Shown here piece after piece: positions 1-59,609 of a stretch of 64,000 nucleotides of DNA. The notes under the pieces were generated by a model. It ran no database searches and was not told the DNA's origin. It worked only from the letters and a program-made list of their open reading frames with translations. This DNA comes from Roseibium polysiphoniae. GTDB lineage: Bacteria > Pseudomonadota > Alphaproteobacteria > Rhizobiales > Stappiaceae. Location of the stretch: the NCBI RefSeq assembly GCF_014842925.1, contig NZ_JACYXJ010000004.1, positions 1 to 64,000 on the forward strand, read 5' to 3'. Each line of letters opens with the position of its first letter. The stretch's first letter is position 1. The translations under genes and the position numbers were made by a program.

Positions 1-74
1 CGTGCCCGGTCGCGGATTTTGACATGACCGGGCCCCATCAAGGAGGGCAAATCCTGACCACGCAACCAAATCAG

Positions 75-110
75 CAAAAAACCCCCGATCGGAAATCCGA
101 CGGGGGTTTT
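75..110. terminator. Bidirectional intrinsic terminator, left copy
   Basis: An A-tract, a C5 run, a short inner stem (CGGA/TCCG), a G5 run and a T-tract form a hairpin that can terminate transcription in either direction. The sequence before it ends in ACCAAATCA, like the tail of a tRNA or stable-RNA gene, but no intact RNA could be folded from bases 1-74. A very similar hairpin with a similar lead-in lies near 16,985. Confidence 0.8.
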
Positions 111-26692: not shown

Positions 26693-26859
26693 ACTGCGAA
26701 GAGCAAGTGCTCGAATTTATTTCGCCAACTTAGAAACGGCAAGATGACCTTGTTGTTTCAGCTTTTGGAATGGGTGTTTTGGGTTGCCGACGGGATGCGA
26801 TAGTCTATGCTCTTATCTGCATTTCTGCGGAGGCACTGTTTGATACGTAAGGGATTGTG

Positions 26860-27381
26860 ATGTCAAAAGAATCGTCAGTTGCTCCGAAGGAGCGCGTCAA
26901 TATCAAATACAAGCCTGCGACCGGTGACGGCAAGGAAGAGGTCGAACTTCCGCTGAAAATGGTTGTTCTGGGTGATTACACCCTGAAAGACGATGATACC
27001 CCCGTCGAGGACCGGGCGCTTATCAACGTCAACAAAGATAATTTTGACGAAGTCATGAAGAGCCATGACCTGTCTCTCGATCTGGCCACAGAGAACAAGC
27101 TTGTTGAGACCGCCGAAGGCGAAGAGCCGGAAAACCTGTCCGTTTCATTGAAGTTTGAAAACCTCAAGGATTTCACCCCTGAGGCGATTGTTCGACAAAC
27201 ACCTGAATTGAACAAGTTGCTCGAGCTTCGCGAAGCGCTGGTTGCCATGAAAGGCCCACTCGGAAACGTTCCTGCTTTTCGCAAGGCAATCCAGGGCGTG
27301 CTTGGCGATGAGCAGTCTCGGGACAAGTTGATGGCGGAACTGACGGGCGCTATCGGCAAGCCTGAGGGCTCCGAAGATTAA
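26860..27381 (+). CDS. tssB: T6SS sheath small subunit TssB
   Basis: TssB (VipA) pairs with TssC to form the contractile sheath. The 173-residue protein shows the family pattern: RVNIKYKP near the start, PLKMVVLGDYTLKDDDTPVEDR, then LKFENLKDFTPEAIVRQTPE and ELREALVAMKGPLGNVPAFRK near the end (segments quoted separately). ATG 26860 has AAGGG six bases upstream; the GTG just before it is a weaker choice. The 167-base gap after tssA might contain an additional promoter. Confidence 0.95.
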   Translation: MSKESSVAPKERVNIKYKPATGDGKEEVELPLKMVVLGDYTLKDDDTPVEDRALINVNKDNFDEVMKSHDLSLDLATENKLVETAEGEEPENLSVSLKFENLKDFTPEAIVRQTPELNKLLELREALVAMKGPLGNVPAFRKAIQGVLGDEQSRDKLMAELTGAIGKPEGSED

Positions 27382-29032: not shown

Positions 29033-29050
29033 CAATCACAAAGAGTGGCG

Positions 29051-29467
29051 ATGATATCGGTCAGTCTTTTGCAACGCCTGGAAGAAGACCTGCCGAATTA
29101 TGCGGGATCAACGACCAGCCAGGCTGAAAATGCATTGATGGACAGCATCTTGTTCAATCTGCGCATGTTGTTGAACAGCAACGCGGGGTGCTGTGAGACG
29201 CGTGCAGATTATGGGCTGGCGGACTTCAATGCGCGTGGGCAAAGCCACCGCGATACAGCCGATGCATTGTGCCGGGATATCGAACGTCAAATAAGAATGT
29301 TCGAGCCACGCCTGCGCAATGCGATGGTGCGGGTCGTCGAAGACGCAGCGCGGCCTCTGGAGTTTATCTTCAGCGTTGAAGCAGATCTGGCTTACCCTGA
29401 CAGGTCCGTACGCGTCAGATTTGATTCCGTGCTCGGAAGCGATGGGCAAGTCCGCCTCAACGTATAG
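29051..29467 (+). CDS. tssE: T6SS baseplate protein TssE (gp25-like)
   Basis: The 138-residue product matches the T4 gp25-like baseplate family: SLLQRLEEDLPN at the start, DSILFNLRMLLNSNAG with CETRADYGLADFN in the middle, and IRMFEPRLRNAMVRV with the arginine-rich core near the end. It helps start sheath polymerisation. ATG 29051 is preferred over the GTG at 29045. It is separated from tssC by a strong hairpin and from tssF by 20 bases. Confidence 0.88.
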   Translation: MISVSLLQRLEEDLPNYAGSTTSQAENALMDSILFNLRMLLNSNAGCCETRADYGLADFNARGQSHRDTADALCRDIERQIRMFEPRLRNAMVRVVEDAARPLEFIFSVEADLAYPDRSVRVRFDSVLGSDGQVRLNV

Positions 29468-29487
29468 TTTTAGAGTTGTTTTTGAAC

Positions 29488-43366: not shown

Positions 43367-43395
43367 TCAGGTATTCGACTCTGGAGCCCACATTT

Positions 43396-45105
43396 CTAAA
43401 CAGGGATCTTGAATTCGAATTCCTGCTGAGGCGCGATATCAGGTGTCGAACGTGCTGCAATCTCGATGACTGAGCCGCCATCATCATCGTCACCCAGATT
43501 GACGTCAAACACCATCTTGCCCGAGTAGATGTCATTAAGCTGGGCAAGGCGAAGACGCAGCGTCTGCAGCATTTCGTCGACGGGTTGATCAGCGGAGAAG
43601 GTTTCCATGAGAACGGACTGTAGCAGCGTGTTGAGGCGCGCCAGAACCAGTGCGTTTGTGAGAGACTGATCTCCCTTTCCGTTGGCAATAGTGGCTGGCT
43701 GGCCGAAGAAGACACTGGCCCGGTTTTCCTGACCCGAAAGCACGGTGATTCCAGTTTGGGCGAGTGCTTCCGAGCTGTCCCTGGAGATCGTTGCGCGAAC
43801 GGCGTCACCAACCTCGCGTCCGCCAATGTGCTTTGATTGCACCTCCAGCGCATCGAATTCGGCCCTAAGCCCTGGTGTCAGCATTGGCCAGCCGGTCCTG
43901 GCCACCTGCTGCGAGATCATGGTGGCAGCGATCCAGCATGACGGGATGAAATAGGCGGGACTGTCTTGGCTCATGGTGCGTGCACAGCCATCATTCCACA
44001 ATAGGCCTAGATGATGCGCTGCATCGTTGTCTCGAAGCGAAAAGAAGCCCTCATGTCCGGTAGATCCGATGACCTCCTGGGGCGCGTCTCTCATGGCAAG
44101 CTCGCTTGCTGCAACGCCTGAAAAGTCGGGAGTGAGAGTGGCCAACGAAAGCGTGTCGAATGTATGAGCTGTGCTCGCCAAAGCTTTCAATTCGGCAACA
44201 CCGGCGTTTTTGAGATCGCACCGATTTGTAAAAACGACAAGATCGAAGAGTTCCGCCGACAGTGCTTCTTCAAGGCGCTGGGAGATATCACCAGCGTCAG
44301 CATCGAGTGGTATTTGAAGAAGTGAGGCATCCGGCGTCTGGTCTTTTGGGGTGCTGCTGAGTAGGAGCCGGAGACCAACCCAATTCTCAAGGATTTGCTG
44401 GCATCTTGGGACTGACAGAAAAGCCTTGGTCTGCAGCGCCAAGAGCCGCTCGACACCTGGAATCGGGGCTTCCTCTGGTGCACTCCTGGACGTTTCTGGC
44501 GGGATGTTTTGTTCGATAAAGGAGTCCAGCAGACCCCTGGCTGCTGTCGCCGGGGCCTCAGGGATCTCGACCATTGACAGTAGTCTGTCGAGGTCATCCA
44601 AGATGTCCGGATTCATATCTTGCTTGGTCGTTTCTTCCGCCACACCGGTCTTTTGATGTTTGGTAGGCCGCGACGTCTTTTCCGGCTGTGATGCGCTTTC
44701 AGCCAGCTTGTCATACCGTTGACCGAACCGCTCAAGAGACTGGAAGTCCCCGGCCTTGAGTGCGGGGCCAATCTCGCTCTTGTAAGAAAACTGGGTCGCA
44801 AGCTTTTCTGGACGCAAGTGAGAGAGCTTCGCAAGGCGGAGCGTTTCAGACAGGACGGGGGGATAGGACCCGAGAAGGTTCTCCGCCTCAATCGTGAACT
44901 GTGGAGCCAGGTCCGAGAGAAGCTCAGCGAGATCCCGACTGGCCAGGTCGTGGCAATCGCCGTTTTCCTCTATTCCGAAATCCCCAACAAGAAGCATCCG
45001 GTAAGCGGGCGTGGGCGGAACTTCTTGCAGCCCATTGTCCGAACCAAGTCCGAAGGTCGTCGTAAAAGATCTGATTCCCGCTTGATGCTCGTTGTCGTCA
45101 GCCAT
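43396..45105 (-). CDS. Single-chain TssB-TssC-like sheath paralogue
   Basis: The 569-residue protein seems to join divergent copies of both sheath subunits. Residues 30-135 align with TssB: YRMLLVGDFG matches KMVVLGDYT, and LRPEKLATQFSYKSEIGPAL matches the TssB segment FTPEAIVRQTPELNKLLEL. After a linker (about 140-170), residues 170-569 align with TssC: LDDLDRLLSMVEI, RCQQILENWVGLRLLL and ITVLSGQENRASVFFGQPAT match the TssC segments DQILHE, FKTLESSWRSLKFVI and FISLTMRKGSDNAAFFSANS. It is the last gene of the VgrG/spike operon, not of the sheath operon. The role may be a cap, adaptor or regulator of the sheath; this is inferred. Confidence 0.7.
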   Translation of the reverse strand: MADDNEHQAGIRSFTTTFGLGSDNGLQEVPPTPAYRMLLVGDFGIEENGDCHDLASRDLAELLSDLAPQFTIEAENLLGSYPPVLSETLRLAKLSHLRPEKLATQFSYKSEIGPALKAGDFQSLERFGQRYDKLAESASQPEKTSRPTKHQKTGVAEETTKQDMNPDILDDLDRLLSMVEIPEAPATAARGLLDSFIEQNIPPETSRSAPEEAPIPGVERLLALQTKAFLSVPRCQQILENWVGLRLLLSSTPKDQTPDASLLQIPLDADAGDISQRLEEALSAELFDLVVFTNRCDLKNAGVAELKALASTAHTFDTLSLATLTPDFSGVAASELAMRDAPQEVIGSTGHEGFFSLRDNDAAHHLGLLWNDGCARTMSQDSPAYFIPSCWIAATMISQQVARTGWPMLTPGLRAEFDALEVQSKHIGGREVGDAVRATISRDSSEALAQTGITVLSGQENRASVFFGQPATIANGKGDQSLTNALVLARLNTLLQSVLMETFSADQPVDEMLQTLRLRLAQLNDIYSGKMVFDVNLGDDDDGGSVIEIAARSTPDIAPQQEFEFKIPV

Positions 45106-45111
45106 GAGGTT

Positions 45112-45465
45112 TCAGCCCCTGCGGTTTAGGAGGGTCGGTGAGGCATCGATCGATAAGAACGCAAGTGTCTGTCTATCGAGAACGACCTTGCCCTGAACTT
45201 CGTAGCCCGCCGTTGTGTCTGCGACATGTCCCGATATGCCGAACACGATGGCGGTTCTGGTGCCTACCATGGAAGTGTCGAGAGGCGTCAGGGTCAGATC
45301 GAGGTTCAGTGGACCACCGTCACTCATGACAACGGATGTCCGTCCGAGGGCACGCGCCGCGCCACCGCCCTCAAGATAAACCTGAGGAGAGCGGTTGCGG
45401 ATGTAGTCATAAATCGCGGCGCGCATTGGGTCGGGTTCGCGCAGGGCCGGCCGCCATGAAGCCAT
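45112..45465 (-). CDS. Conserved-looking protein of unknown function in the spike operon
   Basis: The 117-residue protein has no recognised domain. It begins MASWRPALREPDPM and contains strands such as SVVMSDGGPLNLDLTLTPLD and TAIVFGISGHVAD, suggesting a small beta-rich fold. It lies 12 bases after the TPR protein gene and 6 bases before the TssB-TssC-like gene, so it is surely cotranscribed with both. It might be a partner or chaperone of the latter. Confidence 0.65.
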   Translation of the reverse strand: MASWRPALREPDPMRAAIYDYIRNRSPQVYLEGGGAARALGRTSVVMSDGGPLNLDLTLTPLDTSMVGTRTAIVFGISGHVADTTAGYEVQGKVVLDRQTLAFLSIDASPTLLNRRG

Positions 45466-45477
45466 CAGATGTCCTTG

Positions 45478-47394
45478 TCACTCAGATGCATGATGTTTCT
45501 TCGTCAAAGGCGATGACTGCGCCTGCAGGTCGAGGAGTTGCGAGACCTGTTCCAGAACCTCTTGCGCAATCTGTGGGAAAAGCTCTGCCCAATTGCCGAA
45601 TTGCGGCGAGCTCACCACGAGCGCAGAAGGGTACCACAGCGCTTTGCCAGCGTCTGCATGCCAATACCAGGGTCTGGCAGGGCGTGTAAGGACGATCGCT
45701 GCCTTGCCCAAGGCTCCTGCCACATGCAATGGAATCCCGTCCGGTCCAATGACCAGGTCCATCTCCGAAAGGACACAGGACAGATCGACAAGGTCCTTGA
45801 AGTGAACGCCCGTATCAACGATGTCCGGAAACGCTTTCAGCTGATGTCGCGTGTCGTCCCAGGCAACGCTGAAAACGGTTCCCGGGAACTCTCTGAGCGC
45901 AGGGCCGTAGTCCTCAAGCAGCAGTCCGGGTCGAGAGGCATCCCATGCCAAGGCGATCCAGGGCCTTGGAAATTCTGATAAGGCCAGGCGCCAATGTTCG
46001 GTTCTGGCTTCCGGAGGGCTTATGTAGGGCAGGGAGGTCGTCACATCGCCGCGTATCGCCTCCGGTATCGCAAGCAGAAGCGAAATGGGAAAGGAAACCA
46101 CATCTTCCGTTTGAGGCGGGGCCTCTCGGGCTAAATCGATCCCGGTATAGGCAATGGCATCGAACAATTCGGCCAACTGCGAGAGCGTTTGCGATCCCGA
46201 CAGGGTTGCCCCTGATCCCTTGCTCATCTGCAGGACGAAGCGCAAAAGGACGATCAGTTCCAGATTTGTAATGCCTGTATCAACGACATAATTTGCGGTC
46301 GAGAGTGCCTCAGCTAAAGACTGGTCATTTGCAATCAGATCGGCTGGTAACCCCAGGGTTTCACCAAGAGGCACCTGATCGAAAGTGCCAACCGCTTTGT
46401 CGATCTCGCCGGTGGACAGATAGCAGTCGCGGGCCAAGTTCCACAATCGTTGGGATTTGTCAGCTGGAAGCTTCGCATGATTTGCAATCAGCGGCTCAAG
46501 CAGGCGCAGCGCCTGCTCCGAAAGGCCAGCCATGCGATAGGCAAGAGCAAGCGCAAGGCTGGCGTCGATGCGATCCGGGTTTCGCTTAACAACGGGCAGG
46601 AATTCCGCAAGGGCAGCACGTGGTTCCCCACGCTCGATCATCACACGCACATGACAAAGCCAGGCAGGAAGCAGGTCCGGAAAGAGCGTCGTCGCACGTT
46701 TTGTGACCCGTTGAGCCTCGCTCAGGTAGCCCAGGGCTGCCAGGTTCGATGCAATGGCAATCATGAAACCTGGATTTTCAGGCGCCTTCAGATGGGCCTT
46801 TTGCAAGTAGTGGGAGGCTTTTTCATTGTCCCCCAGGCCCGAGAGAATTTCGCCGATGAGGCCGTTGAGGTCTGCATTTTCAGGGTCCCGTTGAAGGGCG
46901 TCCTGAGCAAGTTCCAAAGCCGGAGGATAAATGCCATGCGCGGCATAGAGCTGGGACATTGCCCGCACAATGCCTATGTCTTCCGGATGGGCGGCGCGCA
47001 CATCTGACAGGAGCACTTCAGCTTCGGAAACCTGACCGTCCTTGATAAAGAACTGGGCCTTCAAGATCGCCGCATCAGCGTGCATTGGATCACTTGAAAG
47101 GGCTTGGTCGACGAACGCTTGCGCCTTGTCTTCTTGCTGGGCCAAAACAAACAGCTGAGCGCAGAGTGACAGGATATCCGCGTTGTTCCCGGCGAGCGTC
47201 AAGGCTTTCTGTGCGAGGGACTGTGCAGCCTCCAGATCACCGAGCTCCATGCGGATCTTCAGAAGCGCTTTAAATGCATCGATAGAACTGGGCGAGAAGT
47301 CCAGAACGCTTTCATAAATCAAAGCAGCACTCTCGCGTCGGCCCGCGTCATGATGCTCTTGGGCAGCCTTCAGACGATCTTCAATCAAGAGCAT
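45478..47394 (-). CDS. TPR protein with glycosyltransferase-like C-terminus
   Basis: The 638-residue protein has many tetratricopeptide repeats in its first half (about 5-330; examples are YESVLDFSPSSIDAFKALLK and AEVLLSDVRAAHPEDIGIVR). The C-terminal part (about 430-625) resembles heptosyltransferase/GT9-like or O-GlcNAc-transferase-like domains: MDLVIGPDGIPLHVAGALGK and VLTRPARPWYWHADAGKALW-YP correspond to the nucleotide-sugar side of that fold. No signal or membrane helix. TPR-glycosyltransferases often glycosylate proteins. Within the spike operon it could modify a secreted protein or act as a scaffold. Confidence 0.72.
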   Translation of the reverse strand: MLLIEDRLKAAQEHHDAGRRESAALIYESVLDFSPSSIDAFKALLKIRMELGDLEAAQSLAQKALTLAGNNADILSLCAQLFVLAQQEDKAQAFVDQALSSDPMHADAAILKAQFFIKDGQVSEAEVLLSDVRAAHPEDIGIVRAMSQLYAAHGIYPPALELAQDALQRDPENADLNGLIGEILSGLGDNEKASHYLQKAHLKAPENPGFMIAIASNLAALGYLSEAQRVTKRATTLFPDLLPAWLCHVRVMIERGEPRAALAEFLPVVKRNPDRIDASLALALAYRMAGLSEQALRLLEPLIANHAKLPADKSQRLWNLARDCYLSTGEIDKAVGTFDQVPLGETLGLPADLIANDQSLAEALSTANYVVDTGITNLELIVLLRFVLQMSKGSGATLSGSQTLSQLAELFDAIAYTGIDLAREAPPQTEDVVSFPISLLLAIPEAIRGDVTTSLPYISPPEARTEHWRLALSEFPRPWIALAWDASRPGLLLEDYGPALREFPGTVFSVAWDDTRHQLKAFPDIVDTGVHFKDLVDLSCVLSEMDLVIGPDGIPLHVAGALGKAAIVLTRPARPWYWHADAGKALWYPSALVVSSPQFGNWAELFPQIAQEVLEQVSQLLDLQAQSSPLTKKHHASE

Positions 47395-47470
47395 TGAAAC
47401 ATCCGGTTTCGATCATGAATTAATGCTGGTTCAATCAGCGGCAACAGTTAGGAGGGGCTTGCGATCGACA

Positions 47471-48124
47471 TCACCCTACGCTCACCCGCGTTGCGTCCAG
47501 GCGAACGTCTTCCTTCGCGGTGATCAAGGAAATCTCGCTGGTTTGGGTTGCAACGTGATCAATGTTTTGCACCAGTGTGCCGGCATTCAACGTCTCGGTT
47601 TCCCGAACAGCGCTTGTGCGCGTGTCGACCGTTGTGGTGATCGTGCGCGCAGAAACCATCTTGTCGATGATGTTCTCAAATGTCCGGGTGAAGCTGGAAA
47701 CACACCGCTTACCCGTTTGAGTCAGGCTCTCTGCGAAAACAGTCAGTTTTTTAGCGGTCAAATGAAGATCCGGCGCGGCGATGTCGATTTGTTGGCCGGA
47801 CTTGATCTGAAGATGGTCGGCCCCCGGCACGGAAAGCTGAGCTACGAGGGATTCCCGCCGCTCCAGAACGGAAAGGATGTGTGCTTCTTCACCCTGAACA
47901 AAAACAAGAACACGATCGCCAATGGCGGGAGCGAGCAGGCAACCAGCGGCTTGCGTGGCATGAACCGGATCGCTTCCTGCCACATCCACCAGCGCCTCGT
48001 GTTCGGTGATTAGAGCAGTCACCGAACCGGTCAATAGAGAGCCTTGATCGCCTTCCTTTGCCCGTAGCTCTTCTCCGTTTCGAGCGGTGGCGGGCGTAGA
48101 GTGCGACTTGCGCGGGGTAACCAT
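47471..48124 (-). CDS. DUF3540 family protein
   Basis: The 217-residue protein has an OB-like N-terminal part (GSLLTGSVTALITEHEALVDV, then LLAPAIGDRVLVFVQGEEAHILSVL), resembling the gp5/VgrG OB fold, followed by a repetitive beta-helix-like tail (LQIKSGQQIDIAAPDLHLTAKKLTVFAESL). DUF3540 genes are often found beside vgrG and DUF2169 genes. I chose ATG 48124, which has GGAG seven bases upstream. It may be a spike accessory or adaptor. Confidence 0.75.
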   Translation of the reverse strand: MVTPRKSHSTPATARNGEELRAKEGDQGSLLTGSVTALITEHEALVDVAGSDPVHATQAAGCLLAPAIGDRVLVFVQGEEAHILSVLERRESLVAQLSVPGADHLQIKSGQQIDIAAPDLHLTAKKLTVFAESLTQTGKRCVSSFTRTFENIIDKMVSARTITTTVDTRTSAVRETETLNAGTLVQNIDHVATQTSEISLITAKEDVRLDATRVSVG

Positions 48125-48175
48125 TCGTGGTCTCCAAACTCGTGTGAAGGCGGCCTGTATAGGTTTGCCCAAGCG

Positions 48176-49285
48176 TTACATAAATGTTTGCATGCCGACG
48201 ATTGCTCCCAGCGGGTTCATCGTGGCACTTAAATTGGTGTTCTTTGCAACGACAGCACCAGCTTCGGCGACCGTGCTGACAGCCTTGACGGCCGTAGTTC
48301 CCATGTCGGCACCGACGTTTTTCAGCATCGCCCCAACATTGGATGCCGTGACTTCATTTGCCGTAATTTCTACTTTGTCTTTTTTTATCTCGGCCTTGAT
48401 CTGGCAAATATCGAATTTGTAGTGACCGACGTCAAACTTCCAGCCGTAGAGGTTTAGCTTGGTAAGGACCGAAATGCTCACGACGGCCGCCAATGACATG
48501 TGAAATTCGGCGGCGAGCTTGAGGCTGACCTTCCCGCCCATAAAGAGCTTCGAACTTCCGCCATGATGAGTGCTTGAGGTGTTCGCGTAAATTTCTTTAA
48601 AAGAGTCTGCTTTGTATATTTCGTATTTATTGTGCTCATAATACTTTCTGGAGACGCTTGTGGTCTTTGTGTATTCTTCACCATTGATCGTTATTTTTGA
48701 TTTATAATAAGATTGCTCAATATCACCCAGGCCATCTGCTGCCGCTATATATATGTTTTGGGCGACGCCGTCAGTATTCGTGCCTGATTCGATGGTCACC
48801 GTGCCTTCTGTACTTTCCAGATGAATGTCGCTGGTCGCGTTGATCGACATTTTTTCGCCGGCCTTTACCAGGATACGCCCATCGCAAGCCAGTAGTATGC
48901 CATTTCCGCCGCCCGCCGCGTTGGTGTAGATCCCTGCGTCCGTCTCGGTTTCTATCTGGTGCGCTGGAAAGTAACCGGCGTAGGCGGCCTCACCCGCGTT
49001 GTAGGCGCTTTGTTCCATATCTGAATACTGGCCAAGGCGCAGGATCGCGCCCAGTCCTGCGTCATCGGACGTCGTCGAGCCATCGCCCACGGTCGCGGGA
49101 ACGTAAAAGTAGGTATAGGTGTTCTGGTAATGGGTTCCCGTATCGGATTGCATCAAAGCCTGATCATCTGTCCGATTGGACAGTGCCTGGTTTAGCGCAG
49201 CGATTTGGTTGCTCTGGGCGTTATTGGTTGTCTCCAGCGCATCAATATCATTTTGAAGTTGCGTAATGCGAGGCGTCCTGGCCAT
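48176..49285 (-). CDS. Spike-like or cargo protein with coiled-coil and beta-helix-like segments
   Basis: The 369-residue protein starts with a coiled coil (about 6-40, heptads in LQNDIDALETTNNAQSNQI), then a region ending in short beta repeats (GRILVKAGEKMSINATSD, IHLESTEGTVTIESG) like those of VgrG tails (DUF2345-type). The rest is rich in Lys, Tyr and Ser, with an Ala/Gly-rich end (GADMGTTAVKAVSTVAEAGA). No catalytic motif is apparent. It follows vgrG after 35 bases. A trimeric spike extension or a secreted effector are both possible. Confidence 0.6.
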   Translation of the reverse strand: MARTPRITQLQNDIDALETTNNAQSNQIAALNQALSNRTDDQALMQSDTGTHYQNTYTYFYVPATVGDGSTTSDDAGLGAILRLGQYSDMEQSAYNAGEAAYAGYFPAHQIETETDAGIYTNAAGGGNGILLACDGRILVKAGEKMSINATSDIHLESTEGTVTIESGTNTDGVAQNIYIAAADGLGDIEQSYYKSKITINGEEYTKTTSVSRKYYEHNKYEIYKADSFKEIYANTSSTHHGGSSKLFMGGKVSLKLAAEFHMSLAAVVSISVLTKLNLYGWKFDVGHYKFDICQIKAEIKKDKVEITANEVTASNVGAMLKNVGADMGTTAVKAVSTVAEAGAVVAKNTNLSATMNPLGAIVGMQTFM

Positions 49286-49320: not shown

Positions 49321-50850
49321 TTAAACGGCACCATCGCTCATTTGCATGACAATGCCCGAGCTTGTTCTCGTGCGATGGGCCACATTTTGGTTTGTCGATG
49401 TGATCGGATTGGTCTGTTCACCGTTGGAGACTGCGCCAAGGATAATCGGCCGATCAGGATCACCGTGGATAAAGCCAAGGATCACTTCGGTTCCGATCAG
49501 CAAAGTTGAATGGGCGCCATAGCCGTCTCCGCCGCCGTAAGGCTCCATTTTCCGGATCTGAGCACTGGCCTTGCCTTTTGATAGACCGCTTTCTTCATCC
49601 AGGATTCGAACCTTGTAGCGCCCGTAATCGTCAAGTTCAGCGCGTTTGCCCTCTGTTTCGCCATCGATCACAGCGCTCAGGTAACCATGCACGGTCGGCT
49701 TGGGCGTTACGCAGGGCGTTCGATAGCCGGCGTCAAACGGGACACACCTGAAGGAGTTGTTATAGGGAGCCGCTGTCTTGTCAGGCGAACTGAAACCGAA
49801 TGGCGTGGTCATCGTGATGCTATGATCAACCTCAACCACGATATAGAGCCCGTCCAGATCAGAGATCGGATGATCGGTCAGTTTGAAAAACAGGCCGGGT
49901 CGCAACAGCGGGATGTTACTTTGACCGCGAAACGAAAGATATTCCGACTGCAGCTGTTCCACACGCCGCTTCGCGAGAAAATTTCCCTCAGAAACAGTGC
50001 TGTAATTCTCGCCATAAAGAGTGCTCACGCCCTGGCCTTTGTGGGACGCATTTTCGGAAACAGACAGTGAGACCTTTGGCGTTTCCTCGTTGTATTCGCG
50101 CAGTGCGAGCGTGCCGCTGGAGGCTGCATATTCGGCATTGAACGACCAGATTGCAAAATCACCTTGGCTGAGAATTTGTTGTTTGCTGCGGTAGGGAAGC
50201 TCCTCGGTCAATTGCCGACCGGAGAGTTTCTTGAAGTGCTCCTTCCGGTCCCCAAAAACGATCTTCTCCTGATCGCCGTCATGCTGGAAGGTGAAGAAAA
50301 TCCCGAATTTCTCACAAAGCCGGCATATGAAATCGAAATCCGTTTCGCGGTACTGCATCACGAAATCGAGCTTCGGGTAGCTCGATTTTTCAGCGAGCAT
50401 CTGATGCTGAAGCGTTCGAGCAATGCGATTGGAGGATGTGCTCGACCCGGCTTTGTTGGCATCGGAGAGCTCACCCTCAACAATGTCGACGACGGTCACG
50501 TCCTTGTCGGACCCGTAGACCTGGTTCTGGGCGCTATAGCGCAACATGGCAAAACCCGGCTCGATCGAAAAGCCGTAACAGAACTCACGATTGGGGGTCG
50601 GGTCGAGGGTTCTGGCCTTGGACACAACACCATGCACGACCGCCGTTTCATCGACGATCGTCAGTTCAAGTTTTACGGCTTTGCCAATCAGGGGATCCAG
50701 CGAAATGGGATCTTTGGACAAGACATCGACATTGAATTCATAGGCGGAGCCGATCGCCTCATGCCCCGAAACGCTTTCGACGTGAACGTCGTCGGAGGCC
50801 ATTCCCGGAAGGGTCAGTTTCATTTTCTGGACGATATCGCCATTACTCAT
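49321..50850 (-). CDS. vgrG: T6SS spike protein VgrG (TssI)
   Basis: VgrG trimers form the tip of the tail tube. The 509-residue protein has the gp27-like part (DVHVESVSGHEAIGSAYEF; FICRLCEKFGIFFTFQHDG), the linker with GLYIVVEVDHSI, and the gp5-like OB domain with DDYGRYKVRILDE and ILGFIHGDPDRPIILG. It ends shortly after the OB domain, so it is a short VgrG without an effector extension; cargo must bind separately. The start has AAGG upstream. Confidence 0.95.
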   Translation of the reverse strand: MSNGDIVQKMKLTLPGMASDDVHVESVSGHEAIGSAYEFNVDVLSKDPISLDPLIGKAVKLELTIVDETAVVHGVVSKARTLDPTPNREFCYGFSIEPGFAMLRYSAQNQVYGSDKDVTVVDIVEGELSDANKAGSSTSSNRIARTLQHQMLAEKSSYPKLDFVMQYRETDFDFICRLCEKFGIFFTFQHDGDQEKIVFGDRKEHFKKLSGRQLTEELPYRSKQQILSQGDFAIWSFNAEYAASSGTLALREYNEETPKVSLSVSENASHKGQGVSTLYGENYSTVSEGNFLAKRRVEQLQSEYLSFRGQSNIPLLRPGLFFKLTDHPISDLDGLYIVVEVDHSITMTTPFGFSSPDKTAAPYNNSFRCVPFDAGYRTPCVTPKPTVHGYLSAVIDGETEGKRAELDDYGRYKVRILDEESGLSKGKASAQIRKMEPYGGGDGYGAHSTLLIGTEVILGFIHGDPDRPIILGAVSNGEQTNPITSTNQNVAHRTRTSSGIVMQMSDGAV

Positions 50851-50880: not shown

Positions 50881-51285
50881 TCAGGGGCTCGGATTCAGCA
50901 ATCGAATCTGGGAAGGAACGAGCGTTGTGCCGACTGAATTAGGTGATAAACCGTTTTGAAGTGTGGGATCTAAAAGGGCTCGTGTCGCAGGCATGGCCTG
51001 TATGAAGAACTTGACCGAGCCTTTCACATTGCGGCTGTTGGAACAGACCATTCCGGAGGCAACTCCGGGCCCGGGCCCACTGATCGTGGCTGGAGCCAGG
51101 TTCGTCATGTTGTGGCTCGGCATGCACATCAGCAGGCATCTGAAACAGGTTGGTATCTCGGTTGCCCTGAACCCCATGCTAAACAATGGGATGGGCACAG
51201 GCCCGACCGGTGTCGGTTGCAAATAAACGTCAGGAACCGAGAAATCCATGCCAGGGATCGGGCCCTGTGAATTTACAAAAGGCAT
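50881..51285 (-). CDS. PAAR-like spike tip protein (DUF4150)
   Basis: The 134-residue protein starts MPFVNSQGPIPGMDFSVPDVY and has a PAAR-like cysteine and glycine-rich core (CFRCLLMCMPSHNMTN). It should cap VgrG, encoded immediately after it. The ATG at 51285 overlaps the stop of the pentapeptide gene by one base (TAATG). The longer open frame upstream reads that gene out of frame and is not real. Confidence 0.85.
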   Translation of the reverse strand: MPFVNSQGPIPGMDFSVPDVYLQPTPVGPVPIPLFSMGFRATEIPTCFRCLLMCMPSHNMTNLAPATISGPGPGVASGMVCSNSRNVKGSVKFFIQAMPATRALLDPTLQNGLSPNSVGTTLVPSQIRLLNPSP

Positions 51286-52406
51286 TAGAGTGCTCCTCCG
51301 TTCGGGGCATTTTCTCCATCCAGAGCGACCATCTTCGGAGAATACAATTCGCCAATCGCCCGGTCCTGATCCGTGTCGATCCGGCTTCCTGAGGCGCCGA
51401 GCATGACCGTGCCGTCGGTTTTGGCGGCATGCAGTTTGGTATTGAAAAAGGTTGTTGCGGCCAAATTGGCACCCGAGATGTCGGCGTGAGAGAATTCCGC
51501 CTGCCTGAGATCGCATCTTTCGAACAACGTCGCCCTGCAGTCAGCCTCCTGAAAAACAGCCGAGAAGAGCGTGGATCCGGTGAAATTGGCTGCACTCAGA
51601 CTTGCGCCCGCGAAATTCGACATCGGCAAAGTACTTCCGGAAAGGTCAATGCCGTCGAGTTGGCACTTGGTGAAGCCTGTTGAATTTCCAGAGATCCCGG
51701 TTAGGCGCGCATCCTGAAAATCGCATTCTGCAAACACCGAGGCATCGAGTTGGGCTCCGGTGAAATCAGTTCCGATAAATGTCGCCTGATAAAAAGTGCA
51801 GCGTTGCCATGACTGATTTGAGAGGTCTTTCCCGGAAAGATCCGCATCTGCAAACACGGCCGTGTCGATATAGGCGTTTGAAATGTCGACACCGCGCAAG
51901 TCAGCGTCTGTCAGCATGAAGTTCGACAGTGCTGCACCCGACAGGGAAATATTCTGAAGGCCGCAGGCCAGAAGAGCGCATCTGTAGATGGCGGCGTCTT
52001 GAAGGCTTGAATTTTCAAGGTCGACCTTTGCAAGCGACACCTGATCAAGCTCCGCCGTCAGGAAGTTCGCGGCTTTGGCGGAACCGGCCACCAACTGCGC
52101 CCTCTCAAGAGAGCAACCCGCCAGATTTGCGCCGTCCATATTGCATTCAACGAACTGGGTGCCCTTGATGATGGCACCGGAAAACCGGCAGCCTTGCAGT
52201 TCACAGGAGACAAATTGGGCCTCTGTCAGATCAGCATCTTCGAAATCACATCCGCTCAGGTCGCATTGAATGAAGCGTGCCTTGCTCAGATTTGACTTGT
52301 TGAACTTGAGGCCTGGGCCACTTCGCAAAAGCACAGGCTGCTCGTGCTCGACGAATGCAAAAATATCCTCGATCGTAATCGGCTTTAGGTCGGGCATCTT
52401 AGGCAT
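51285..52406 (-). CDS. Pentapeptide-repeat protein
   Basis: The 373-residue protein consists mainly of A(D/N)LXX pentapeptide repeats (about 35-330; for example CDFEDADLTEAQFVSCELQG), which fold as a square right-handed beta helix. No signal or catalytic domain is seen. It overlaps the preceding DUF2169 gene by 8 bases. Such repeat rods next to DUF2169 and DUF4150 genes are thought to help load or extend the spike; the exact role is not established. Confidence 0.88.
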   Translation of the reverse strand: MPKMPDLKPITIEDIFAFVEHEQPVLLRSGPGLKFNKSNLSKARFIQCDLSGCDFEDADLTEAQFVSCELQGCRFSGAIIKGTQFVECNMDGANLAGCSLERAQLVAGSAKAANFLTAELDQVSLAKVDLENSSLQDAAIYRCALLACGLQNISLSGAALSNFMLTDADLRGVDISNAYIDTAVFADADLSGKDLSNQSWQRCTFYQATFIGTDFTGAQLDASVFAECDFQDARLTGISGNSTGFTKCQLDGIDLSGSTLPMSNFAGASLSAANFTGSTLFSAVFQEADCRATLFERCDLRQAEFSHADISGANLAATTFFNTKLHAAKTDGTVMLGASGSRIDTDQDRAIGELYSPKMVALDGENAPNGGAL

Positions 52407-55400
52407 GGGTCGGCTGCTCCAGCGAAGTCATGCCAAGATTTGCGCCCGAAAGGTCGCAGCTGGCGAGATTGGCCTCCAGCAAGTTGGCCGCATAGAGGTT
52501 TGCCGCTCGCATGGAACAGCGTCTCAAGTCTGTCTGGTTCAATGCTGCAGAAAACAGATTGGCACCGAAGAAGTCGCTGTCGGCGAGCTTCGATTTGCCA
52601 AACAGGCAACTCTTGAAGGAGCCGAGTCTCAGGTCGGTTGCCTCCATATCGCAGGCGTTGAAGAAGCAGGAATGGCAAGACGCTCTCACAAAACAGGATT
52701 CCTGCAACTTCGCTGTGTTCCAGGAGGTCTCTCGCGCTTGCAACGCATCGAACCGGCTGCTGCTCAGGTCGGAGTTGCCCATGAAGCCAACGGAAAACAG
52801 GGAGGCGCGTCTGAAGTCTACGTTCGGAGCCTGGATCTCCATAAACGCAACGCGTTCCATCGATGTGTCTGAAAAGTCTGCATTGGCGAGTGGCAAGGAC
52901 ATGAACACCGCGCGCTCGAGCCTGCTGCCTGCGGCCGAAAAGCCGTTTGCGCTGCCAAGTAGCATCTGTAAATCCGAGACCTTGCATCCTCGGAGGCTCA
53001 CGTTGTCCAGGGTGCACTCAATCAACTGACTCTCGGACAGGACAGCTCCGTCAGCGGTGAGGTCTGAAAGATCAGACCGAATGACCGTCAGGCCGTTCAG
53101 AGTGGCGTTGGTCAATGTCGCGCCACGCAGGGAGGCCTGGCTGATGTTTGCCTTGGTTAGATCGGTTCCACTCAGATCCGCGCCGTCGAGCGTGGCGCCA
53201 GCAAAAACGGCCTTTCCAAGTTTCGCTCCGGCAAAGTTCGCACCCGTCAGGTCCGTGTTTTCAAAGAAAGTTCCGCTCAGGTCCAGACCGCTGAAGTCGG
53301 CATTGCGCAAATCTGCTCCTGCGAGGTCGGCGCCTTTGAAGTCTTGCCCGGATGCGAGGCTTTCGACGACGAAAGTGCCAAGCCGCTCGGCCACACCAGG
53401 TAGAAGTGGCTCAAATGGACAAAGCGGGGCAGGTGACATTTGCCTGCCCGTTGCCAGGGCCTCTGCCACACTGGTCTCCGCCTCGTCTATTTTTTGCAGC
53501 GAGTCGGTCTTGGCCTTTTGGGCCTTTTCCGGCGGTGTAAGTCCGTCCATGGCTTCGCTGTCAGGCGGCGCTATGTCCTGAACACGAGACATGAGTCCGC
53601 TGATCGGGTCGTCCTCAGTGCCTTCGGGAACAAGATGCGAGGCCATCGAAAGGAGCTTGCCTTCCGCCGCCGCCAATGCCTGCTCCATGGCTTCTGTGCT
53701 TAGTCCATCTTTGTATTCGGGAAGTTCGGGGATGAGTGCATCCCGTTTAAAGGATGTCTCACGCGGGGCGATCTCTGGAAGAGGCAGTGAGTCGCCGATC
53801 ATGTCCAGAAACTCATCATCAAGACCCTGCTGCAGCGTGGAGGGGTCGCTGATCTGGTCCACCATCCCCAGATCCACGTCATTCAAGCTCGTGCGTGCCT
53901 CATGCAGCAGGGACCCTTCTGGCAATCCCAGGGCACGCGCGCGGGCCGTTTGAAACTGTTTCTCTACGGCCTCGGTATCGGATCCGCTTGGCTCATCGAA
54001 AATCTGGAACGCTTCATTGATCGCGGCCTCGATTTCGTCGGCGCGCTCGGTCTCATTCGGGTCGATGATTGACAGCATCTGATCCTGGGCGGAGCCCAGC
54101 TGTGTTTCCAGCTCCTTCAGTCCAACCGCCACGTCCTTGTCGAGCTCAAGATCCTGATACTTCGCCAGTTTCTCATCGCTTACAATCGGCGTTCGAGCGA
54201 TGTCCGGCAAGACGGCGTTCGGCGCTGCCGTCACGATGGCCCGGCGCTGTATCTCGGCTTTCGCCATCTCCTCGTCCATCCGCGCCATCAAGGCATCTTC
54301 GAGGGACTTCATGTCATCCATCAAGGCGGCGAGATCCAGGTCACCATTTTCGATTTCTTCAGATGTCGGTTGCGCAACGAGGGGGAGGTCGCCAAATGCA
54401 TTTTCATCGACCGGAGGTATGAGCTCCGGTGGCATTTCCTCGTCTTCCATGAATTTTCTGGCGGCCCAGTTTTGGTTTTCCAGAAACCGGATCCGGTCTG
54501 CCTGAGCCTTTTCAAGTTTTTCCTGACGCCGCGCGCTTACTTTGCCTTGAGCGACCTCGGGCATCAGCTGAAAATCCGAGAGAGCATGTTTGTGAGCCTC
54601 TTCCGGATCAGTGCGTTTGTTGAAGACATCTAGATAGTAGTCCGCAGGACGTGGTTCGGCATCGACATGCTCAACCGCAATCATGATCGTACCGATATCT
54701 TCGGCGAACCGGTCGGCGCCCCTGATAAGTCCCCGAAATGTAAGAACAGCCTTCTCGACGTTCGGAAAGAGGGTGACGGTGTCACAAACCATCGTCGTTT
54801 CGGTGAAGCTTTCGTCGTGGGGTTGGTGAAAGAACCCACGCGTTCTCAGTCGTGGCAGCTGCCCGCCTACCGTCGACGTGCCCCTGGACATGCCCGAGAT
54901 GGCAAATGTTTCACCACCCTCGAAATAGCCCTCGAACCTTTGATCGTCCGGCGCATCGCAGTGAAATAGCGGATTGAAATCCTCCGGCTTGAGCGGAGAG
55001 ACCTTTTTGATCCAGTGTTGGTCGTAGGTTCCCGCATAGCGCATGCGCTGGGCATCATCCGGTGCCAAGGGACCAAAATGGGCAGGCTGCGGTACATCGT
55101 CAATCGATCGGATCGGCGAATTGAGATCTTCGACGTTCGGCAGAGGAGCATCATAACCCGCATTCACGATCCTTCGGGAGTCATGCCCCTTTCCATGCGG
55201 GTTCAATTTGAAGTTTTGGCCGCCGAACGCTTGGACATTGCCGACGGGCATTTTGTGAAATGGCTGTGCCGGTAGCATCTCTATGCCCTGATCGGTCAGC
55301 CTCCAGTAACGATCTCCGAATACAGCGAGCCGTTTCTCCCAGCCACCAAGTCGAGCAATGACTTTTTGACCTTGGACAGGTTCATCCGTTGGCGCCAGCG

Positions 55401-55653
55401 CATGACCGGCAATGATAACCTCGGAACGGGGTTTCAGCTGGCCCTTGTCGAACATGGCGCCGTTCGGCATTTGCTCGGTAACCATCGGCCACAGAGCCTG
55501 TTCCGTTAGCAGACGTTCGGGTTCAGAAAAATCAACAAGCAGGAATGCGCTGACCGTTGTCAGCCCGCCATCACGAACGGCCTCAGTTTGGGATGCGACC
55601 GAAACACGGCTTGGTTTGATTATCGCTGGCACGTCTCGGGTCTCCGCCTGCAT
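52399..55653 (-). CDS. DUF2169 and pentapeptide-repeat fusion protein
   Basis: The 1084-residue protein has a DUF2169 domain in its first 340 residues (TTVSAFLLVDFSEP, VQGQKVIARLGGWEKRLAVFGDR, PVGNVQAFGGQNFKLNPHGKG). A long acidic, helix-rich middle part (about 370-770) follows, and then a pentapeptide rod (about 785-1080, many ADLXX units). DUF2169 proteins are T6SS adaptors that link effectors to VgrG/PAAR tips. It is the first gene of the minus-strand spike operon. Confidence 0.88.
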   Translation of the reverse strand: MQAETRDVPAIIKPSRVSVASQTEAVRDGGLTTVSAFLLVDFSEPERLLTEQALWPMVTEQMPNGAMFDKGQLKPRSEVIIAGHALAPTDEPVQGQKVIARLGGWEKRLAVFGDRYWRLTDQGIEMLPAQPFHKMPVGNVQAFGGQNFKLNPHGKGHDSRRIVNAGYDAPLPNVEDLNSPIRSIDDVPQPAHFGPLAPDDAQRMRYAGTYDQHWIKKVSPLKPEDFNPLFHCDAPDDQRFEGYFEGGETFAISGMSRGTSTVGGQLPRLRTRGFFHQPHDESFTETTMVCDTVTLFPNVEKAVLTFRGLIRGADRFAEDIGTIMIAVEHVDAEPRPADYYLDVFNKRTDPEEAHKHALSDFQLMPEVAQGKVSARRQEKLEKAQADRIRFLENQNWAARKFMEDEEMPPELIPPVDENAFGDLPLVAQPTSEEIENGDLDLAALMDDMKSLEDALMARMDEEMAKAEIQRRAIVTAAPNAVLPDIARTPIVSDEKLAKYQDLELDKDVAVGLKELETQLGSAQDQMLSIIDPNETERADEIEAAINEAFQIFDEPSGSDTEAVEKQFQTARARALGLPEGSLLHEARTSLNDVDLGMVDQISDPSTLQQGLDDEFLDMIGDSLPLPEIAPRETSFKRDALIPELPEYKDGLSTEAMEQALAAAEGKLLSMASHLVPEGTEDDPISGLMSRVQDIAPPDSEAMDGLTPPEKAQKAKTDSLQKIDEAETSVAEALATGRQMSPAPLCPFEPLLPGVAERLGTFVVESLASGQDFKGADLAGADLRNADFSGLDLSGTFFENTDLTGANFAGAKLGKAVFAGATLDGADLSGTDLTKANISQASLRGATLTNATLNGLTVIRSDLSDLTADGAVLSESQLIECTLDNVSLRGCKVSDLQMLLGSANGFSAAGSRLERAVFMSLPLANADFSDTSMERVAFMEIQAPNVDFRRASLFSVGFMGNSDLSSSRFDALQARETSWNTAKLQESCFVRASCHSCFFNACDMEATDLRLGSFKSCLFGKSKLADSDFFGANLFSAALNQTDLRRCSMRAANLYAANLLEANLASCDLSGANLGMTSLEQPTHA

Positions 55654-56148: not shown

Positions 56149-56661
56149 ATGGCTAACATCGGATACATCACGATCAGTGGCTCTACCCAGGGCGAAATCA
56201 CCAAGGACGCTTCAACCGCAGATTCCATCGGCAACGTCTGGCAGGAAGGCCATGAGGGCGAGTCCCTGGTCTACAAGTTCGAGAGCAACGCAATCGTACC
56301 GCGTGATCCGAACTCCGGCACAGCCATCGGCACTCGCCGTCACCAGCCGACCGTCTTTGTTAAGCCGCTCGACAAAGCATCCCCAATGCTGTGGCAGGCG
56401 CTCGCTACAGGTGAAAACCTGGAAGTCGAGATGAAATTCTGGCGCACCTCCGTCAGCGGTGTGCAAGAGCATTACTACACAATCAAATACACCGACGCCG
56501 TTCTCGTTGAAGGCAAGACCATTCTGCCGGACGTCAACGATGAAGCAAACACATCTCGTGGTGACCTCGAGCAGTGGGCTCTGACCTACCGCAAAGCTGA
56601 ATGGACCCACGAAATCGCCGGCACTTCAGCTTCTGATGATTGGCGCGCTCCAGTTACCTGA
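56149..56661 (+). CDS. hcp: T6SS tail-tube protein Hcp (TssD)
   Basis: Hcp hexamers stack into the inner tube that is fired out. The 170-residue protein has the family pattern: YITISGSTQGEITKD, VYKFESNAIVPRDPNSG, RHQPTVFVKPLDKASPMLWQ (segments quoted separately) and the final WALTYRKAEWTHEIAGTSASDDW. AGGAGG precedes the ATG, which fits high expression. It is located away from the main operon, under its own sigma-54 promoter. Confidence 0.97.
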   Translation: MANIGYITISGSTQGEITKDASTADSIGNVWQEGHEGESLVYKFESNAIVPRDPNSGTAIGTRRHQPTVFVKPLDKASPMLWQALATGENLEVEMKFWRTSVSGVQEHYYTIKYTDAVLVEGKTILPDVNDEANTSRGDLEQWALTYRKAEWTHEIAGTSASDDWRAPVT

Positions 56662-56890: not shown

Positions 56891-56906
56891 AGGGAGCGGA
56901 ATTTTG

Positions 56907-59609
56907 GTGGATCTTGATCTTCGTCGCCTTATTAGTCGCCTGAATACCTATTCTCGCCGCGCGCTGGAATCTGCGGCTGGACTTGCGGTGACCCGTGGGC
57001 ATTTCGAGGTGACGATAGAGCATCTGCTTTATGTGTTTGTCGAGGACAGCCAACACGACGTCCAGACTGCCTGTCGGCACTTCGAAGTTGATCCGACAAA
57101 TTTCAAAAAGAGCCTGCATTCGACACTTGAGGACATGAAGCGCGGCAACGAAGGCCGGCCAGTGTTCTCACGCTTGCTGATTGAGTGGATTTCAGATGCC
57201 TGGCTGGTCAGCTCCGTCGAGTTAAACCTTGATCAAGTGCGTTCGGGCAGCCTGTTCGCAACGGTTTTTGCCCAACCCAACCGTTTCGGCGATGACCGGT
57301 GGCTTTCTGAGCTGCAGTCGGTCTCCTACGAGCAGTTCAAGAAAGACTTCGGCGCGGCGGTCGAGGGATCAGAAGAGACAACCACCGAGCAGACCTCCGG
57401 GACCAGCAACGAAAGCAAGGCAACGCCTGGTGCGAGCCCTGACAGCGCGCTGGCGAAGTTCTGCACCAATTTCACCGAGCAGGCGCGGCAGGGCAAGATC
57501 GACCAGGTGTTCTGCCGTGACCGCGAAATCCAGCAGATGATCGATGTGCTGGGCCGTCGACGCAAGAACAACCCAATCTGCGTTGGAGATCCAGGGGTCG
57601 GCAAGACTGCCGTTGTTGAGGGCTTGGCGCGCAAGATCTCTGAGGGCGACGTTCCCGACATGCTCAAGAATGTCGAGTTGATCGGTCTTGACCTTGGAAT
57701 GTTGCAGGCCGGTGCTGGTGTTAAGGGTGAGTTCGAAAACCGCCTTAAGGGCATCATCGAAGAGGTTAAATCCTCGCCGAAGCCCGTCATCCTGTTCATC
57801 GATGAAGCGCATATGCTCATTGGTGCGGGTGGTTCAGCGGGCGGCGCTGACGCGGCCAACCTATTGAAACCGGCGCTGGCACGCGGTGAGCTTCGGACCA
57901 TCGCGGCGACGACCTGGAGCGAATACAAGAAATACATCGAAAAAGACCCGGCCCTTGAACGCCGGTTCCAGCTTGTAAAGCTGGATGAACCCAGCCCTGC
58001 TCAAGCAATCACGATCATGCGCGGGCTGCGCACCGCCTATGAAAAGAACCATGGCGTCTACATTCGGGACAACGCCGTTTCAGCGGCCGCTAAATTGTCG
58101 GCTCGGTATATTTCAGGCCGTCAGCTGCCTGATAAGGCGGTCGATGTCCTCGATACCGCCTGTGCCCGTGTGAAGCTGTCACTATCCTCAAAACCATTCG
58201 CGATCGAGTTGAGAGAGAAGAACCTCGGCGAACTTCGCCGGGAGCTTGATTCCATTCGTCGCGACCAGCAGTCGGACTTCGGTGACGAAGCTCTTCAAGT
58301 ATCTGAAATTGAAGAAAAAATTTCCGATCTCGAAAACGAAATCGCCGAGTTGACGTCAAAGTGGCAAGAAGAACTTTCCCTCGTTGACGAAATTCTGCGC
58401 ATGCGCCTTGAGCTTGGCTTGACGCTCGATGAGGATGCTGCTGAGCCTGACAGTGAAGCCAATGACGGTGATACTGACAGTGATACTGGCGGTGATGAAG
58501 CGCCAGCCGCACCGGATCTGGATGAACTGCGTGTGAAATATCGTGAGGTGGCCGAACAGTTGACCGCCATACAGGCCGGGGACCCTTTGGTCTCCTTCGA
58601 GGTCACTGAAGAATCCGTCGGGCAGGTCATTGCTGATTGGACGGGCGTTCCGCTCGGGCGAATGGTTGAGGATGATGCTCAATCCATCCTGTCGCTTTCA
58701 GAGAACCTGAAGGCCAGGGTGGTTGGCCAGGACCATGCCATTCAGGCAATCGATGAAGCATTGCGCACAGCCAAGGCCGGGGTGCAAAACCCGGACGCGC
58801 CGATGGGTGTTTTCTTGTTCGTTGGCCCGTCCGGCGTCGGTAAGACCGAGCTGGCAACGGCCATCGCCGATCAACTGTTTGGCGGCGAGCGCTTCCTTAT
58901 TTCGATCAACATGTCCGAATTCCAGGAAAAGCATACCGTATCGAAGCTGGTTGGCTCTCCCCCGGGTTATGTTGGTTATGGCGAAGGTGGTCTCCTGACC
59001 GAAGCTGTGCGCCAACGACCCTATTCCGTCGTCCTGCTCGACGAGGTCGAAAAGGCAGACCTGGAGGTCATGAATCTCTTCTACCAGGTCTTCGACAAGG
59101 GCATGTTGGCAGATGGCGAAGGCCGGCAGATTGATTTCAAGAATACAATCATCGTTCTGACCAGCAACCTCGCAACGGATGTGCTTACCGAGATGGGCAC
59201 ATTGCCCACACAGCCGAGCTCCGATGAGCTGGTTGCTGCAATCCGGCCGATCCTGAGTGCGCATTTCAAACCGGCACTGCTGGCACGCATGCAGATAGTG
59301 CCCTTCTACCCGCTAGTTGGCGCGCCGCTTGAGAAAATCGTCCGTCTGAAACTCAACAAGGTCGGCAAGCGGCTGTTGGAAAATCAGAAGATGACACTCC
59401 ATTATTCTGACGAGGTGGTCGCCGCAATCTCCGCCCGCTGCACGGAAGTGGAGACAGGCGCCCGCAACATCGACCATATCGTGAACCGTACGATCCTTCC
59501 TGAACTGTCGACTGAGCTTTTGACCCAAATGGGGTCAGGTGATGCATTCTCATCGGTCTCGATTGATGTCCAGGGAGATGGTCGTTTTGGATATACGCTG
59601 TCAGTCTAG
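56907..59609 (+). CDS. tssH: T6SS AAA+ ATPase TssH (ClpV)
   Basis: ClpV disassembles contracted sheaths for reuse. The 900-residue protein has the Clp N domain (about 1-145: RALESAAGLAVTRGHFEVTIE), first AAA+ domain with Walker A GDPGVGKTA and LFIDEAHML, a coiled-coil middle domain with an acidic insertion (about 510-545), and second AAA+ domain with GPSGVGKTE and LLDEVEKAD. The ClpV type is indicated by FLISINMSEFQEKHTVSKLV. The start is GTG 56907 or the TTG just before; AGGGAG lies about 10 bases upstream. Confidence 0.95.
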   Translation: MDLDLRRLISRLNTYSRRALESAAGLAVTRGHFEVTIEHLLYVFVEDSQHDVQTACRHFEVDPTNFKKSLHSTLEDMKRGNEGRPVFSRLLIEWISDAWLVSSVELNLDQVRSGSLFATVFAQPNRFGDDRWLSELQSVSYEQFKKDFGAAVEGSEETTTEQTSGTSNESKATPGASPDSALAKFCTNFTEQARQGKIDQVFCRDREIQQMIDVLGRRRKNNPICVGDPGVGKTAVVEGLARKISEGDVPDMLKNVELIGLDLGMLQAGAGVKGEFENRLKGIIEEVKSSPKPVILFIDEAHMLIGAGGSAGGADAANLLKPALARGELRTIAATTWSEYKKYIEKDPALERRFQLVKLDEPSPAQAITIMRGLRTAYEKNHGVYIRDNAVSAAAKLSARYISGRQLPDKAVDVLDTACARVKLSLSSKPFAIELREKNLGELRRELDSIRRDQQSDFGDEALQVSEIEEKISDLENEIAELTSKWQEELSLVDEILRMRLELGLTLDEDAAEPDSEANDGDTDSDTGGDEAPAAPDLDELRVKYREVAEQLTAIQAGDPLVSFEVTEESVGQVIADWTGVPLGRMVEDDAQSILSLSENLKARVVGQDHAIQAIDEALRTAKAGVQNPDAPMGVFLFVGPSGVGKTELATAIADQLFGGERFLISINMSEFQEKHTVSKLVGSPPGYVGYGEGGLLTEAVRQRPYSVVLLDEVEKADLEVMNLFYQVFDKGMLADGEGRQIDFKNTIIVLTSNLATDVLTEMGTLPTQPSSDELVAAIRPILSAHFKPALLARMQIVPFYPLVGAPLEKIVRLKLNKVGKRLLENQKMTLHYSDEVVAAISARCTEVETGARNIDHIVNRTILPELSTELLTQMGSGDAFSSVSIDVQGDGRFGYTLSV

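Follow-up and report, generated by a model that had tools for sequence, protein, structure and literature searches.

A single-chain TssB-TssC-like sheath paralogue encoded in the vgrG operon of a Roseibium type VI secretion cluster

In the type VI secretion system (T6SS), the two sheath domains reside on separate proteins, TssB and TssC (the VipA/VipB heterodimer), while in phage, R-pyocin, Afp and PVC sheaths a single chain carries both. Neither the start of T6SS sheath assembly at the baseplate nor the control of sheath length is fully understood. Here we describe a 569-residue open reading frame (ORF) with an ATG start, referred to below as the fusion, at 43396..45105 on the minus strand of a 64,000-nt stretch of Roseibium polysiphoniae DNA (the window, which denotes the whole stretch analysed). 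The fusion is a T6SS sheath paralogue with both sheath domains on one chain, as in contractile-phage and R-pyocin sheaths, and belongs to a conserved, fast-changing family. Profile comparison of the two halves, Pfam scans of its relatives and fold comparison support the original prediction, made from the DNA sequence alone, that this ORF in the vgrG operon encodes one polypeptide with a TssB-like domain followed by a TssC-like sheath domain. No description of a natural TssB-TssC fusion was found in the literature searched, which comprised open-access papers only. A VgrG-linked sheath paralogue tied to one T6SS subtype provides a single gene through which sheath initiation and length can be probed.

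With the TssB/TssC heterodimer, the fusion shares homologous domains in TssB-TssC order, a TssC-type linker motif and a fold that matches solved TssC, whereas it differs in being one chain, in falling below the Pfam cut-offs in its window copy, in being encoded with vgrG beside a complete tssBC, and in evolving far faster. It resembles the phage, R-pyocin, Afp and PVC sheaths in its single two-domain chain; unlike them, its sequence is of T6SS type and its T6SS cluster also contains ordinary TssBC. The second TssC of Agrobacterium, TssC40, is not known to carry a TssB domain and, like the fusion, is a divergent additional TssC homologue in a T6SS cluster. A passage in PMC3702570 describes TssC40 (ImpD, Atu4340) as essential for Hcp secretion and non-redundant with TssC41, and its locus number, as given there, adjoins those of tssC41 and tssB rather than vgrG. 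The Afp sheath, according to a passage in PMC12961389, is made of Afp2, Afp3 and Afp4, so that a machine with more than one sheath protein has been described before; the essential TssC40 is a further precedent.

Sheath domains, predicted fold and linker motif

The fusion comprises an N-arm (residues 1-32), a TssB-like domain (residues about 33-141), a disordered linker (residues 142-213) and a TssC-like domain (residues about 168-569), with the TssC alignment beginning at residue 170. Searches with the window sequence alone yielded only sub-threshold or chance matches: the Pfam family VipB (PF05943) scored 14.9 bits, under its cut-off of 27, VipA (PF05591) was not reported, and NCBIfam TssC gave an E value of 0.21. 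Seven PDB sequence matches at E <= 10 were discarded, all being potassium channels and none sheath proteins. A family profile was therefore needed, and two alignments were built, A1 with 16 whole fusion copies, the window copy included, and A6, a 13-row set with identities down to 21%. Profile-profile comparison (hhalign) of A6 in separate halves, corresponding to window residues 1-141 and 165-569, paired the N half with TssB at a probability of 96.7 (E 3.9e-10) and the C half with TssC at 99.2 (E 2.9e-19), the latter alignment extending to position 436 of 496 in the TssC profile. In the controls, E was 0.33 and 0.78 with the halves crossed, 0.36 and 0.6 with the targets reversed, and 0.35 with an unrelated alignment; of the 50 column shuffles run for each of four target/profile settings, the best reached 0.05-0.11. 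An hmmsearch with A6 also recovered two ordinary sheath proteins of genome G104, TssB at 42 bits and TssC at 70 bits.

Residues that are invariant or nearly so across the 13 diverse A6 rows are G19, G41, D42, F43, N76, D96, L172, D173, L175 and Q225, followed by W242, L324, F328, N371, P407, L448, G452, R462 and V535; in the hhalign alignments, G41-D42-F43 pairs with LGDY of the window TssB and W242 with SSWR of the window TssC. Two of the blocks previously aligned by eye, VGDFG with LGDYT and ENWVGLRLLL with SSWRSLKFVI, are identical to those of hhalign, while the third, ENRASVFFGQ with SDNAAFFSAN, was placed at the right location but without the two-residue gap that hhalign inserts there.

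In Pfam scans of eight fusion relatives, taken as whole proteins, a single ORF in each of G143 and G177 scored above the cut-offs of both VipA and VipB. VipA (cut-off 24) was reported in three of the eight, at 34.8 bits in G143, 28.1 in G177 and 22.5 in G032, the first two above the cut-off, and VipB exceeded its cut-off in five (G131, 61.3 bits; G143, 73; G177, 43; G239, 40.9; G474, 29.6). G131, G239 and G474 were thus above the VipB cut-off alone, and G236 (VipB 16.3), G043 (VipB 25.5) and G032 (VipB not reported) were under both. In a genome scan, the G043 fusion passed the VipB cut-off, and a VipA scan of 20 genomes placed the fusion above the cut-off in G032 (24.8) and G034 (24.3) and below it in G020 (23.0) and G027 (21.7). 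PF18945 (VipB_2, the gp25-like C-terminal domain of TssC) had no Pfam match in the window fusion or in the eight relatives.

The structure prediction agreed with the sequence comparison. The AlphaFold model of the fusion as a single chain matches solved TssC structures, with the alignment running to model residues 559-560 and TssC residues 474-483, and also matches single-chain phage-type sheaths across both domains, the R-pyocin sheath being aligned over 34..559. The model therefore displays the two-domain sheath fold on one chain that is found in phage and extracellular contractile injection system sheaths. At the sequence level, no PHROGs family matched the window fusion and three relatives at E <= 0.1, no phage sheath family in Pfam matched the window fusion or the relatives scanned at the limits used, and tblastn of the fusion in plasmids and phages found nothing, with no phage record at E <= 0.1.

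The disordered linker includes a near-invariant LDxL motif, LDRL in the window (residues 172-175; codons at 44581..44592, minus strand), which hhalign aligned with SLLDQIL of the window TssC. In motif columns 170-179, the majority fraction was 0.72 in A6, against 0.31 and 0.39 in the flanks, and 0.86 in A1, against 0.34 and 0.49. ClpV recognizes TssC via a helix of its N-terminal region in systems with an LLDEII motif, as described in a passage of PMC4239648. Compared with LLDQIL of TssC, the fusion drops the first leucine and carries the helix internally, within a segment modelled as disordered. We consider LDxL a probable ClpV contact. The original prediction had missed this motif, which aligns with the ClpV-recognition helix of TssC, along with the small conserved partner orf117 and the link to one T6SS subtype within the genus, both described below.

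Distribution of the fusion

Our survey of TssB-TssC fusions in T6SS loci located the fusion in 17 of the 45 Roseibium genomes and in six further genomes (G131, G143, G177, G236, G239 and G474), which are spread over five other families. The protein search had matched 17 of 101 relatives, all 17 within the genus, including G001, in which the fusion is present as two pieces at contig ends. Among the genus genomes, all 16 with a TssC at least 87% identical to that of the window carried the fusion, whereas 28 of the 29 others gave no match (Fisher p 2.6e-11, a value too small given shared descent); these absences rest on the single-protein search, and five of the 28 were also negative in the order-level profile search. 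Within Roseibium, the fusion is tied to one T6SS subtype. No fusion was found in G013, whose T6SS belongs to the window's TssC clade and whose TssC is 64% identical to that of the window.

At the order level, a profile search matched 12 of 397 genomes, consisting of three Roseibium, five with fusion-length ORFs from other families (G131, G143, G177, G236 and G239), three with TssC-length ORFs and one with a giant ORF. At the class level, four of 385 matched, namely the window's own, a fusion-length ORF in G474, the only genome representing its order, and two TssC-length ORFs, while at the phylum level the window's own was the only fusion-length ORF among the 6 of 398 genomes matched. All these counts are lower bounds, at most three candidates per genome having been scored. 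An ordinary TssC of the window's clade was present in five of the six fusion genomes outside the family and was not found in the sixth, G236, whose assembly is 86% complete. In a tree of the TssC-like domain (LG+G4 without mixture, midpoint root), the 14 fusion rows formed one clade (100/99) separate from the 15 ordinary TssC rows, with L152_tssCb and the G474 and G033 fusions on long branches and five rows of odd composition.

A pattern scan of genome contigs returned 10 loci, nine under Roseibium or Labrenzia titles and one under Alphaproteobacteria bacterium, although its two narrow peptide patterns say little on wider spread; a pattern scan across viral contigs picked up 34 stretches, none of them a relative. 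Weak A1 matches in G571 and G616 lay in TssC-length ORFs. In G104, a match to A6 that was split and contained a stop was rejected as a broken fusion, since the region consists of an ordinary tssB and two ordinary tssC genes; tandem tssC pairs, ImpC/ImpD-like as in Agrobacterium, occur at L168:8399-11501 of this genome and at L152:10047-12948 of G006.

Gene order, evolutionary rate and a possible role at the VgrG end

Gene order and sequence identity were compared in 15 of the 17 Roseibium fusion genomes, with G001 (contig end) and G040 (decayed cluster) omitted. All 15 clusters exhibited the order vgrG, optional cargo genes, orf117, fusion, with the fusion last and away from the ordinary tssBC, and G131 and G239 likewise retain vgrG, orf117 and the fusion. 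This vgrG linkage fits a role of the fusion at the tip, although the results do not discriminate between the roles offered in the original prediction, which were a special sheath ring at the baseplate or tip end, a length regulator and a chaperone-like mimic. The fusion probably serves as an accessory protein of sheath fold at the VgrG end rather than as a bulk subunit, and we favour, with a probability of roughly 0.4, a low-copy accessory protein at the VgrG/baseplate end. It would be made together with VgrG and be present in one or a few copies at that end of the tail, where it might act as an adaptor or starter ring joining spike, baseplate and TssBC sheath, with orf117 as its partner; after firing, ClpV could handle it via LDxL as it handles TssC. 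A more elaborate picture, in which the T6SS has two sheath building blocks, TssB/TssC and a single-chain phage-like ring at the spike end that is produced alongside VgrG and orf117 and disassembled by ClpV via the internal motif, seems unlikely to us.

Several observations weigh against the accessory role at the VgrG end. The fusion is not adjacent to vgrG in G143, G177, G236 and G474: in G474 it lies between tssA and fha of the main cluster, with vgrG about 10 kb off on the same contig, and in the other three no match to a window T6SS protein was found within 5-11 kb on either side. No orf117 was found in the examined fusion loci of these four genomes. In G040 (L114), a T6SS remnant with the left flank, pppA, a sigma-54 activator piece and a kinase gene, the fusion is intact, yet the 20 kb examined revealed none of the tss genes and no vgrG, orf117, hcp or clpV. 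The fusion also evolves far more quickly than the sheath that it would contact. Mean pairwise identity was 0.43 for the fusion compared with 0.92 for TssC, 0.83 for TssB and 0.70 for VgrG, and the ratio of nonsynonymous to synonymous substitution (dN/dS), calculated from one species pair (the window and G026, its closest relative), was 0.307 for the fusion, about 18 times the 0.017 of TssC, and 0.047 for TssB. Furthermore, the identities of the fusion tracked those of TssC (Spearman 0.85, over 105 pairs), TagF (0.83) and TssK (0.82) more closely than those of VgrG (0.72) and orf117 (0.62); for the cargo genes, the correlation with the fusion was 0.85-0.97 on only 21-28 pairs, and the cargo tracks TssC equally closely. 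Such fast evolution beside a very slow TssC argues against a normal or bulk sheath subunit and would suit a protein with an accessory or regulatory task.

The gene order would also suit a loading or assembly factor specific to VgrG, whose sheath fold holds VgrG, orf117 or cargo before assembly and remains outside the fired machine. The fusion comes after vgrG and directly after orf117 in 15/15 clusters, whether cargo genes are present or not, and fast evolution is common in spike-cargo adaptors. Against such a factor, which we regard as improbable, the fusion occurs in the seven of 15 clusters without PAAR, DUF2169 and TPR cargo genes near vgrG (the other eight have cargo genes between vgrG and orf117), its divergence does not follow vgrG best, and the lack of adjacency to vgrG extends to G040 as well as to the four genomes named above.

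Mean pairwise identities of the remaining genes were 0.73 (TssM), 0.63 (orf117), 0.59 (the kinase ppkA), 0.56 (pppA) and 0.43 (TagF). In another reading, the fusion is a sheath mimic that regulates by poisoning, limiting tail length or number or competing with TssC for ClpV. Such a mimic would bind the growing or contracted sheath by its arms, or ClpV by LDxL, and would support no next ring. A sheath fold of divergent sequence with a retained ClpV-type motif is consistent with it, as are a mean identity equal to that of tagF and below those of pppA and ppkA, and the survival of the fusion beside pppA in the decayed G040 cluster. In the window-G026 pair, however, the dN/dS of tagF is only 0.080 against 0.307 for the fusion, so that a regulator-like pace is not seen in that pair, and the mimic leaves the coupling to vgrG and orf117 unexplained; a poison should, moreover, not be required in every cluster of a subtype. 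We consider the mimic a doubtful explanation, second to the accessory protein at the VgrG end.

The rates also raise the prospect of a decaying tssBC duplicate with little or no function, given that the fusion has the highest dN/dS of the 11 genes compared and that ordinary tssB and tssC are present beside it. The ratio is, however, still well below 1, and the fusion is under fast yet purifying evolution; taken separately, the linker gave 0.65, the TssB part 0.29 and the TssC part 0.27. Frames are open in all 16 A1 rows and in the six genomes of five other families, near-invariant residues are retained at 21-35% identity, and within the genus the gene is tied to one T6SS subtype, all of which renders decay very improbable. 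In the same species pair, dN/dS was 0.025 for VgrG, 0.027 for orf117 and 0.230 for the 369-aa protein encoded next to vgrG.

Other TssB-TssC fusions and the surrounding genes

TssB and TssC domains also share one ORF in four further genomes. G033 (L153:9219-11027) encodes a 603-aa direct TssB-TssC fusion with VipA, VipB and VipB_2 all above the Pfam cut-off; within 20 kb there was no match to other window T6SS proteins, and its neighbours, judged from sequences alone, resemble cell-division and cell-wall genes. Giant ORFs of 996-1167 aa at L113:7623-10610 (G323), L150:8504-12004 (G029) and L151:6006-9410 (G021) have a full N-terminal TssB and a long middle, followed by a further weak TssB-like segment and one resembling TssC, and no more than one small ORF separates them from vgrG; in G323, an acidic stretch separates the TssB and TssC-like parts. 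None of these belongs to the fusion clade in the tree, although G033 is long-branched and its placement unsure, so that the joining of TssB and TssC seems to have happened more than once, probably in separate fusion events. This suggests that the TssB/TssC split can apparently be rejoined repeatedly, which bears on the relationship between T6SS and single-chain phage sheaths.

The window contains a complete T6SS on the plus strand, from tssA (start 25007) through a Ser/Thr kinase gene (ppkA, start 42359). The ordinary sheath genes mentioned in the original prediction lie elsewhere in the same cluster, both with strong Pfam matches, tssB (small subunit) at 26857..27381 (PF05591, E 6.7e-53) and tssC (large subunit, with the LLDQIL motif) at 27486..28970 (PF05943, E 1.8e-130; PF18945, E 1.8e-44). 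They are followed by tssE (GPW_gp25, 29045..29467) and by genes starting at 29476 (tssF), 31203 (tssG), 32393 (fha), 34336 (tssJ), 34963 (tssK), 36310 (tssL), 37240 (tssM), 40937 (tagF) and 41701 (pppA, a PP2C phosphatase). A divergent plus-strand group of hcp (56149..56661, its first gene), clpV (56904..59609) and a sigma-54 activator gene lies beyond the spike operon. Sigma-54-type promoter patterns were no more frequent than chance would give (12 found against 13.4 expected), and the interval from 55653 to 56149 had none; scanning 43300-49000 for sigma-70 promoters and terminators yielded no more than shuffled sequence did.

The spike operon (55653-43396, minus strand) faces the T6SS genes, and the fusion is its last gene. 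It begins with a 1084-aa DUF2169 and pentapeptide-repeat protein (52399..55653), followed by a 373-aa pentapeptide-repeat protein (51285..52406) and an overlapping Tox-PAAR-like ORF (50881..51516), whose start may be internal because of the overlap and because the matching ORFs of several relatives are 133-135 aa long (that of G036 has 214 aa). Next come vgrG (TssI, 509 aa, 49321..50850) and a fast-evolving 369-aa protein with no assigned role (48176..49285), a possible cargo whose end is weakly similar to the VgrG profile. The DUF3540 gene (47471..48172; 233 aa from TTG, the true start possibly further in) is the real gene at its position, and the plus-strand ORF at 47423-48013, which overlaps it and has no family match, was rejected. 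Directly upstream of the fusion lies orf117 (45112..45465), a conserved 117-aa partner with a predicted helix and five strands, for which no known family was found. It is preceded by a 638-aa TPR protein (45478..47394) with a weakly glycosyltransferase-family-9-like (heptosyltransferase-like) end, which occurs in eight of the 15 Roseibium clusters, only those with cargo genes, and may be a modifying enzyme or cargo.
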